From NCBI GenBank assembly GCA_022844345.1, contig JALHLU010000001.1, positions 1-64,000 on the forward strand: a stretch of 64,000 nucleotides of DNA, read 5' to 3'. Of this stretch, positions 14,838 to 58,480 are shown piece by piece; position 1 is the stretch's first letter; each line of letters starts with the position of its first letter. The notes under the pieces were generated by a model. The model saw nothing but the letters and a program-made list of their open reading frames with translations. It did not search any database and was not told the origin of the DNA. A program made the translations under genes and the position numbers. This DNA is from Hyphomonadaceae bacterium (GTDB taxonomy: Bacteria; Pseudomonadota; Alphaproteobacteria; Caulobacterales; Hyphomonadaceae).

Positions 14838-15626
14838 ATGGCCCGCTTCACCGGCAAATCCATCATCGTCACCGGCGCCGCTTCCGGCATTGGCCGCGCT
14901 TCGGCGAAACTGTTCGCGGCCGAGGGCGCGTCCGTGATCGCCGCCGACAAGGCGGCAGGCGTAAACGACACTGCCGCTGACATCGTAAAGGCTGGCGGCA
15001 AGGCCATCGCCCTCGAGATGGACGCGGGCAGCCAGGCCGACGTGCAGAAGCTGATCGACCTCGCTCTGAAGACCAATGGCAAGCTCGACGTTATCTATGC
15101 CAACGCCGGCATATCGGGCGGCACGCCGAACATCTTCGAGCAGACCGAAGACCAGTGGCAGAACATCCTGCGCGTGAACCTCATCGGGCCGATGCTGGCG
15201 ATCCAGCTTGGCGCACCGCACATGATCAAGCAGGGCAAGGGCGCCATCGTCTGCACCGCCAGCGTTGCGGGCATCCGCAACGGCGCGGGCTCGCCGGCCT
15301 ACTCTGCCTCCAAGGCCGGGGTGATCTCGCTCGTCTCTCTGGCCGCCAACCAGCTTGCCGGCACGGGTGTGCGCGTCAACGGCGTCGCGCCGGGGCTCAT
15401 CGAGACCGGGATGACGCAGCCGATCTTCGACCGCGCGCGCGAGAAAGGCACCGACGACAAGATCGGCCAGCTCAACGCCCTGCGCCGCGCGGGCCAGCCG
15501 GAGGAGATCGCGAAGGTGGCGCTGTTCCTCGCCTCCGACGATGCATCCTATGTCAATGGCCAGGTGCTTCCGGTGGACGGCGGACTGTCGTCGTCCCTGC
15601 CGATCGTGCCGCCCAAACGCGGCTAG
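14838..15626 (+). CDS. Short-chain dehydrogenase/reductase (classical SDR)
   Basis: 262 residues. The NAD(P)-binding motif TGAASGIG is near residue 12, NAG near residue 88, and the catalytic Ser...YSASK set near residues 140-157; the protein ends with a typical VLPVDGG segment. The acidic residue after the second beta strand (IAADKAAG) hints at NAD(H) preference. The internal ATG was chosen because GAGGAAA lies 6-8 nt upstream; another in-frame ATG is 21 nt earlier. Substrate unknown. It is divergent from the DUF885 operon. Confidence 0.85.
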   Translation: MARFTGKSIIVTGAASGIGRASAKLFAAEGASVIAADKAAGVNDTAADIVKAGGKAIALEMDAGSQADVQKLIDLALKTNGKLDVIYANAGISGGTPNIFEQTEDQWQNILRVNLIGPMLAIQLGAPHMIKQGKGAIVCTASVAGIRNGAGSPAYSASKAGVISLVSLAANQLAGTGVRVNGVAPGLIETGMTQPIFDRAREKGTDDKIGQLNALRRAGQPEEIAKVALFLASDDASYVNGQVLPVDGGLSSSLPIVPPKRG

Positions 15627-57323: not shown

Positions 57324-58385
57324 CTATTCCGCCATCGCCTGCGCAGCAGACGACAGACGCGTCCGCGCGCCCTCTGCCGTGCGCACGCCAAACACCGCCG
57401 CAAGGCCCTGACGTTCCGCCATTGCAAGCCCATCCGTGAGCCCCAGCGCGAACAGAGCCGTCGCCCAGCCGTCCGCATCCATGCAACGCTCGTGAATCAC
57501 TGCAACGCCGCAGAGATCGCCCGCCGGCGCCTCGCCCGTCCGCCCATCCAGCAGGTGCGAAACACCCTCGCGCCGCCGCACGAAATCTCCCGACGTGGCC
57601 GCCGCAAGGTTCACCAGCGCAACATCCGTCGCCGGTGGCTCCCCCGGCGAAGGCGGCATATCCGAAAGCTCCAGCGCCACCCACCATGGCTGCACATCCG
57701 GCTTCACACCCCGCCCCACAAACTCGCCCCCGATCTCCATCAGGAAGCTCTGCACCCCAAGCGCGCTCAGCCGCGCCGCGCAGACGTCCACCGCATACCC
57801 CTTCGCGATCGAGGACAGATCGATCGCCACACCGCCCGGCTGGAACGCGCGATGGGTTTCAGGATCGAGCTTTACGTCCACCCTCGACTTGTCATCCCGG
57901 GCGAGCCGAAGGCGAGACCCGGGACCCATGGAGATATCGTCGGGCTGGATGGATGGGTCACGAATAGCGCTGCGCGCTTCCGGGATGACAACCGGAGACT
58001 GGCTGGGCCCAAACCCCAGCATATCCATCCGCCGTGCCAACGCCGGATCATACGCCCCGTCAGTCAGCTCCGCGATCTCGAGCGCGCGCGACAGCACGGC
58101 GAAGAACTCCGGCTGCAGCTCACGCCACCCCGCCTCCGCACGATTGAAACAGCAAAGATCGGATTGCATCTCCCATCCGCTCATCTGCCGGATCATCAGC
58201 GAGAACGTCTCTTCAAGCGCCGCCATCACATCGGCGTTCGCAACACTTTCCGCCGCCGCGAACGAAAGCGACCAGCCCGTCCCCATCGTCGCGCCCGACA
58301 GCCGCCGCACCGGCGCATCGATGCGCGAGGCGCGCACGTCCGCTGGCTTCATGCCCTTCGGAATGAGGAGGCGAGCGCCGGTCAT
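57324..58385 (-). CDS. apbE: FAD:protein FMN transferase (ApbE)
   Basis: 353 residues. Family segments: SGATMGTGWSLSF, ELTDGAYDPALARRMDMLGFGPS, VAIDLSSIAKGYAVDVCAARL, FLMEIGGEFVGRG and AATSGDFVRRR...HLLDGRTGEA. The enzyme attaches FMN to Thr of exported flavoproteins using Mg2+ and FAD. Between GFGPSQSP and SRVDVKL there is a 33-residue insert encoded by a 99-bp palindromic element (57891-57989). No Tat/Sec signal or lipobox is obvious, unlike many ApbE proteins. The ATG at 58385 was chosen; the frame is open 12 codons further. Confidence 0.88.
   Translation of the reverse strand: MTGARLLIPKGMKPADVRASRIDAPVRRLSGATMGTGWSLSFAAAESVANADVMAALEETFSLMIRQMSGWEMQSDLCCFNRAEAGWRELQPEFFAVLSRALEIAELTDGAYDPALARRMDMLGFGPSQSPVVIPEARSAIRDPSIQPDDISMGPGSRLRLARDDKSRVDVKLDPETHRAFQPGGVAIDLSSIAKGYAVDVCAARLSALGVQSFLMEIGGEFVGRGVKPDVQPWWVALELSDMPPSPGEPPATDVALVNLAAATSGDFVRRREGVSHLLDGRTGEAPAGDLCGVAVIHERCMDADGWATALFALGLTDGLAMAERQGLAAVFGVRTAEGARTRLSSAAQAMAE
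57891..57989. repeat. 99-bp palindromic element inserted in frame in apbE
   Basis: The element starts GTCATCCCGG (57891-57900) and ends CCGGGATGAC (57980-57989), perfect 10-bp inverted repeats. Inside are GACCCAT...ATGGGTC arms and AGCGC-TGC-GCGCT, so it could fold as a branched palindrome. It is 99 bp, exactly 33 codons, with no stop in the apbE frame, and encodes VIPEARSAIRDPSIQPDD and MGPGSRLRLARDD. Confidence 0.8.
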
Positions 58386-58480
58386 GGTCCCCTTGCTGTC
58401 AGTTCGCCCTGCCAGGTGCAAGCAAAGAGGCCCCGCAGCGAACCGCGAGGCCTCGTGGCGGCATCATCACTCTGGCCAGA

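Follow-up and report, generated by a model that had tools for sequence, protein, structure and literature searches.

An in-frame palindromic block in apbE of a Hyphomonadaceae bacterium, very probably one copy of a dispersed pair of TGTC-tagged hairpins

Described palindromic repeats and the block in apbE

Palindromic repeats that lie in frame within protein-coding genes are best known from Rickettsia, where they might be put down to the genome decay of an intracellular parasite. REPINs and GTAG REPs come with RAYT transposases. For alphaproteobacteria, the parts of Di Nocera et al. (2013; PMC3733652) on which we draw describe a CGTC-REP superfamily that includes RPE-4 and RPE-6 of R. conorii, with a terminal CGTC tag (or TGTC/CCTC), a stem of 8-9 bp starting with AT, a loop of 4-5 bp, and a CCA-type tail. 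Head-head (HH) dimers predominate and some lie inside ORFs; in Rickettsia, dimers or groups encode 20-30 residues, and the superfamily is described in the same parts as being without a dedicated transposase (PMC3733652). The CIR repeats of Caulobacter (Chen and Shapiro, 2003), following the portions of PMC2229807 and PMC10969869 used here, carry a conserved GANTC and are reported to be strictly intergenic. A further "palindromic repeat" in the part of PMC5009972 consulted is a CRISPR mention.

The window analyzed here (the whole stretch of 64 kb) comes from a Hyphomonadaceae genome of 4.19 Mb in 18 contigs, referred to as G000; other G numbers denote relatives, and the comparison covered 15 genomes of the genus. 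It contains apbE (57324..58388, minus strand), which encodes a 354-aa FAD:protein FMN transferase with a complete Pfam ApbE domain and no stop (PF02424, E=3.7e-55, profile positions 1-266 of 266, residues 35-333). Within this gene, an initial annotation had described a 99-bp palindromic block inserted in frame, and the observation is real: the block (57891..57989, minus strand) starts with GTCATCCCGG, finishes with CCGGGATGAC, and in the apbE frame encodes 33 residues without a stop (VIPEARSAIRDPSIQPDDISMGPGSRLRLARDD). This block is very probably one copy of a dispersed palindromic repeat, consisting of a head-head pair of TGTC-tagged hairpins and keeping the frame in a loop of ApbE.

The ends of the 99-bp block are as annotated, but they match each other perfectly over 12 bp (TTGTCATCCCGG at 57889-57900 and CCGGGATGACAA at 57980-57991), and the family is conserved for ~9 bp outward of the core on both sides, as measured by column information in the flanks of 77 of 87 copies (those with exact GTCATCCC/GGGATGAC ends, the other 10 being excluded). 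The flank consensus reads CCACNGCTT ahead of GTCATCCCGG, and AA(G/C)CNGTGG behind CCGGGATGAC. Since conservation continues this far, the full element is probably nearer ~117 bp (57882..57998, minus strand), an extent that we transfer to the apbE copy from the family flanks. When folded, both strands of the block beat most shuffles (z of -2.60 and -3.21; 2/200 and 1/200 shuffles as good). The family model matched the window only at 57890-57990, on both strands, in agreement with the earlier remark that it holds no second copy. An extra exact GTCATCCCGG at 15406-15415 is within chance, and allowing up to one mismatch gave 10 matches in the window vs. 7.0 expected, a number reached by 19 of 100 shuffles. 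An Rfam search of 57700-58200 at E<=5 returned no match, and a literature search on titles and abstract openings did not find the element named, although it may still have been published.

Copy number, anatomy and affinities of the repeat

The suspicion that the block belongs to a multi-copy element was borne out in its own genome, where BLASTN found eight places at E<1e-3 including the block itself, the longer ones at 75-80% identity, and a covariance model (built from seven copies, six from G000 plus the apbE copy of G004) gave seven matches at E<=1e-6, with at most 107 candidates scored per genome. At the same threshold, the model matched 67 times in G008, 47 in G004, 41 in G003, 20 in G005, 12 each in G007 and G009, five in G012, three in G006, two in G001, and once in G011, and found none in G002, G010, G013, and G014. 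Matches occur beyond the genus too (21 of 37 genomes and 10 of 18 genera); G046 and G049, which belong to the same order, have 53 and 35, for example. Among the matches listed, the best E outside the genus was 3.3e-13 vs. best values of 1e-24 to 1e-22 within it, so the order holds related dimers. In a class-wide sample of 190 genomes, searched with stricter filters and 20 candidates scored per genome, five genomes including G000 matched at E<=1e-8.

For closer comparison, 156 matches on both strands were reduced to one strand per copy, giving 87 copies from six genomes, drawn mostly from the stronger matches (7 of 7 model matches in G000, 39 of 67 in G008, 21 of 47 in G004, 7 of 20 in G005, 7 of 12 in G009, and 6 of 41 in G003); a truncated match in L136, a second weaker match in L164, and an end fragment in L186 were left out. 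The 77 copies with exact ends served for flank tests, and 64 of similar length for the covariation test. On eight contigs of G008 (C3, C6, C7, C15, C26, C27, C33, and C40) copies lie within ~600 bases of the contig ends; the repeats therefore probably cause breaks in the assembly, and copies may be undercounted. One stretch of G008 (C34:50901-93013) is unusually dense, with eight model matches in ~42 kb, one of them of a weaker sister type.

Each copy is a pair of outward-tagged hairpin arms (TGTC-ATCCCGG...CCGGGA-CC) flanking a variable centre, and in the alignment of 64 copies the ends and the two arms are conserved while the centre varies. In gene sense, the apbE copy has its first arm at 57953..57989 (from the copy alignment), the centre at 57930..57952, and a second arm of subtype B2 (TCTCGCCTTCGGCTCGCCC) at 57891..57929, all on the minus strand, the last two delimited by comparing left, centre, and right parts of the copies. 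In the tag, TGT is invariant and C nearly so among the 64 aligned copies, and all 77 copies with exact ends have T before GTC and A after GAC. The stem starts with AT and ATCCCGG pairs over 6-7 bp, its first A being paired in only part of the copies; the arm loops of ~14-22 nt have their own covarying inner stem, and the tail CCGGGA-CCCAT is followed by the inverted unit.

A cloverleaf of an outer TGTCA stem, two arm hairpins, and a central ACCCAT/ATGGGT stem, drawn after viewing the same alignment, had 95.7% of its cells paired over the 64 copies, and changes on both sides of a pair occurred in 35 cells vs. 8.0 (sd 2.5) in shuffles, a count that none of 500 shuffles reached. These cells fall in the first arm (20), the second arm (13), and the central stem (2), with none in the arm-to-arm outer stem, and two of the right-arm pairs adjoin gapped columns. 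Two of five measures of covariation were weaker: seven pairs had a both-side change vs. 4.1 in shuffles (9/500 reach this), and further pair types numbered 21 vs. 21.0 (314/500). Sliding the partners by 1-3 columns left 24-40% of cells paired and 4-8 cells with both-side changes. Pairing of arm with arm as an alternative fold showed no excess (2 cells vs. 3.8 expected).

The 82 exact TGTCATCCCGG sites of G008 form 37 facing pairs and leave eight unpaired by manual count, with none in the reversed control, so what is dispersed is the doublet rather than the lone hairpin. In G000 there are 19 such sites, with five facing pairs (one of only 43 bp), nine unpaired, and one in the control; a paired-ends pattern found four full palindromes in this genome and none in its reversed control. 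Deviation from the consensus has a median of six columns in G000 (six aligned copies) vs. two in G008 (30 copies), and the site pattern of G000 is in line with older, decayed copies. In one G000 copy (L009:1505-1642, i.e., G000:C4:290883-291020) a repeat, CCCTTCGACGCCGCTTGCGGCGTCGCTCAGGGTAAACC, is nested in the first-arm loop, and its G008 counterpart L132 is without it.

Compared with the HH dimers of the CGTC REPs as outlined in the parts of PMC3733652 used, the repeat shares outer ends that carry the TGTC form of the tag, a stem beginning with AT, an inner tail of CC(A) type, head-head dimers of unlike units, the alphaproteobacterial host, the lack of a flanking Y1 transposase at the loci seen, and a mostly intergenic location with some copies inside ORFs. 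It differs from that account in its much longer loops with a stem of their own, its outer stem of 6-7 bp instead of 8-9, and the ~9 bp conserved outward of the tag. Because the loop length fails the published description, the element is a CGTC-REP-like variant and not a proven member. With the Rickettsia palindromic elements it has in common a palindromic repeat in frame inside a conserved protein gene that is still open, although RPE-1 is longer. The parallel drawn in the initial annotation is even closer than a resemblance, in that RPE-4 and RPE-6 sit in the CGTC-REP superfamily according to the same parts of PMC3733652; where it falls short is that R. conorii has many intragenic copies, while here they are exceptional (2 of the 87 copies, in the same gene of two genomes). 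The interpretation as a whole is supported in outline, and the analogy is largely right.

Two other known types fit less well. CIR repeats, in the portions of the accounts used, resemble ours in being ~110 bp long, having two arms joined by a linker, and occurring in alphaproteobacteria, but our copies occur also inside apbE, and GANTC was found in 7 of 87 copies vs. 24.8 expected from simple base shuffles, and on that last ground this candidate was rejected. REPINs and GTAG REPs with RAYT likewise have a dimer of inverted hairpins as the dispersed unit (PMC3733652, parts used), but the tag here is TGTC and not GTAG.

Location of the copies and the ApbE loop

Copies normally lie outside recognized protein domains, and most are intergenic. 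Across the 87 copies in six genomes, 59 stop-free frames run through an element (over 47 copies), and a Pfam scan at E<=1e-4 covered 56 of these, both apbE frames among them, the three omitted being other frames over the apbE copies; this test is blind to genes that belong to no Pfam family and to those that a copy has disrupted. Only two copies lie within a Pfam domain, both in the same apbE loop, in G000 and G004. In six other frames with a domain (DJ-1/PfpI, dUTPase, FAA hydrolase, 2OG-Fe(II) oxygenase, GNAT, and glyoxalase) the domain starts after the element, and the copy is therefore probably upstream of the gene. Inspection of 17 long frames by eye together with the 56 frames by Pfam yielded no in-frame insertion other than that in apbE. 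By their length and sequence, 26 of the 87 copies are open in the apbE frame and would keep it.

For one intergenic copy of G008 the syntenic spacer in G004 is without the element, the two spacers being too diverged to read the junction. The syntenic stretch of G000 (C7 ~154520-154790, in L239) holds a different inverted repeat, TTCGACGGGCG...CGCCCGTCGAA, and G004 has almost nothing there. Several copies are directly followed by a second multi-copy sequence of ~120-470 bp (L003 and L006 in G000; L110, L130, L139, L144, and L149 in G008; L184-L187 and L189 in G003). In G000 and G008 this sequence resembles a structured RNA and ends in ...CGGACTACGGACTACGAACTACGGACTA...CCGCGTCCCCAGCCCTCCA, and G003 has another version; Rfam at the gathering score gave no match at ten loci with the RNA-like tail. 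A further repeat of ~112 bp in G008 (L230:902-1013), a weak model match of 62 bits, is present in many places in G004 and G003 and in some in G000.

In the genus, apbE was matched at E<=1e-20 in 11 of 15 genomes, and the loop is covered in 10 of them (G012 is partial). The element is present in the loop in G000 and G004, and absent from the other eight (G008, G003, G013, G011, G006, G001, G005, and G007). The segment from GFG to QPG measures 55 residues in G000 and 53 in G004 vs. 25-33 in the eight relatives without the insert, in keeping with the variable-loop position proposed earlier. The alternative named with that proposal, a single-copy sequence conserved in all related ApbE proteins, does not agree with a multi-copy repeat that is absent from eight of ten.

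A clean boundary between filled and empty alleles was also anticipated, and here the alignment disagrees: the loop differs in length and sequence in every relative, and no clean junction can be read. The block encodes 33 residues, yet the G000 segment exceeds those of the insert-free relatives by only 22-30. Some of the original loop therefore seems to have been lost, and the insertion would not be a clean add-on; judging from these alignments, it apparently occupies a length-tolerant stretch after the GFG motif. Solved relatives of ApbE include 5mgy, 6nxi, and 3pnd; 5mgy aligns at the insert region only with several gaps, and a position on the protein surface is suggested by the length variation.

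Combining these data, we suggest that the repeat is non-autonomous and abundant in several members of this Hyphomonadaceae genus, that its unit is an outward-facing pair of REP-like hairpins that bear TGTC tags and have long, structured loops, dispersed as a pair and not as a single hairpin, and that one copy entered apbE by transposition-like copying. In this orientation the 99-bp copy is free of stops and keeps the frame, yielding an enzyme some 20-30 residues longer than those of its relatives. ApbE with the insert is probably still made and active; the insert may be tolerated, not useful, and the element itself selfish. This kind of element is already known, and what is special here is the setting outside Rickettsia, the one apbE loop common to two species, and the turnover of the arms. 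A case in another alphaproteobacterial lineage, with insert-free relatives and dozens of related copies, makes it possible to ask whether such repeats add tolerated or useful peptides.

Insertion history and mobility

Eight neighboring gene pieces from nine genomes group G000 with G008 at 100, apart from G004 and the rest, with the root assumed among the others; the split is shallow, given that the two pairs hardly differ in fourfold identity (0.699 and 0.688). Against this background, the evidence is evenly poised on whether there was one old insertion before the split of G000, G008, and G004, with arms later rewritten by exchange with other copies and with loss of the copy in G008. Orientation, frame, and downstream register are the same in G000 and G004, which favors it, but G008, the sister of G000, has a 31-residue segment that begins with PAL, as in G013, and shows no remnant of the repeat by eye. 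We dropped the different arm subtypes of the two apbE copies as proof of two insertions, as arm mismatch is also seen in pairs judged orthologous. Among six other copy pairs judged orthologous by their flanks, two are likewise far apart in the family (G000 L005/G008 L145 at ranks 75/38 and G000 L003/G008 L139 at 74/56, of 86; apbE pair 25/55) and a third (L009/L132, 12/82) differs by the nested repeat mentioned above; the far-apart pairs make arm turnover within one old insertion possible, while the three close pairs (ranks 4/8, 1/3, and 1/4) speak against it.

The degree of decay bears on the same reading. At 73 conserved columns the apbE copy of G004 never departs from the consensus, which argues against an old insertion (P ~0.06 with just its 14 fourfold sites free to change, 4e-7 with neutrality throughout), but this argument from age is weakened because a control, the copy pair common to G008 and G004, stays nearly as close to the consensus (L117 with 0 and L152 with 2 deviations). 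The apbE copy of G000 has eight deviations. Two are first-arm substitutions absent from the 62 other aligned non-apbE copies, both synonymous and both weakening the arm stem; the remaining six, some of them outside third codon positions, fall in the second arm at sites that set the B2 subtype apart. The pair of first-arm substitutions gives, with n=2, no more than a hint that in the G000 copy the encoded protein has come to count for more than the hairpin.

Two independent insertions, in the G000 and G004 lineages, with the loop as a tolerated or preferred site, are plausible if short of probable. The second arm is of B2 type in the G000 copy and of B1 type in the G004 copy, the two copies are only 81% identical, and their nearest copies are elsewhere: 36 nt at 57890-57925 are identical to copy L120 of G008, and the G004 copy is nearest to L184 of G003 (93%) and L115 of G008 (92%). 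The sister G008 without an insert and upstream junctions that differ by two codons also point this way, and a parallel is found in the part of PMC3733652 used, where different REPs occupy about the same recB site in X. campestris and X. oryzae. Weighing against it are the mismatched arms of pairs judged orthologous by flanks and the need for a hot spot, since only 2 of 87 copies lie inside a domain. That two subfamilies of one palindromic repeat invaded the same ApbE loop separately, in neighboring lineages and with identical frame and orientation, is a tentative proposal that we hold to be rather doubtful; if true, the loop would be a natural docking site, and CGTC-type dimers would be recently mobile and site-selective without a known transposase.

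Recombination that carried the filled allele between the G000 and G004 lineages is improbable. The N-terminal part of ApbE alone supports G000+G008 weakly (63), and the DNA of this part in G000 has a little more identity with G004 (84.7%) than with G008 (83.1%), but the C-terminal part (91) and the neighboring genes without apbE (100) support G000+G008, and the inserts are 19% different with unlike arm subtypes. A palindrome arisen by chance in an ordinary, fast-evolving loop of ApbE would suit the varying length and sequence of the loop among relatives, but has next to no probability and was ruled out by the genome-wide copies in G000 (75-80% identity; seven model matches) and by facing end pairs that had no reversed-control matches (paired-ends pattern in G000, TGTCATCCCGG sites in G008).

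As to what moves the repeat, a search of 37 genomes for Y1_Tnp (PF01797) found none in G000 or G004, in line with the CGTC superfamily as described, and matches in eight genomes, including one each in G008, G007, and G011 and two in G005. The six Y1 loci inspected, of ten, hold one single end motif and no pair within ~1.5 kb, and with these two results a RAYT-driven REPIN was not supported; G008, the richest in copies, does hold one Y1_Tnp gene, which makes a Y1 role in the genus conceivable and counts against our best explanation. Target-site duplications in 77 copies showed no clear excess over permuted flanks for k=2-9 at offsets 0-3. Because conservation runs ~9 bp further out, offsets 0-16 were retested, and the strongest signal (k=2, 21 copies) was weak, being reached by 5 of 100 permutations. 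No such duplication was found in the 77 copies, which does not fit a MITE of a DDE insertion sequence and, like the unreadable junction in apbE, counts against our best explanation. The family offers a tractable set for asking what moves CGTC-type repeats, as the doublet persists even where paired substitutions alter its arms. Sister palindromic repeats with TGTCATTCC/GGAATGACA ends also occur next to apbE in the genus, directly before the gene in G008 (L219:11934-12052) and directly after it in G005 (L221:403-520).
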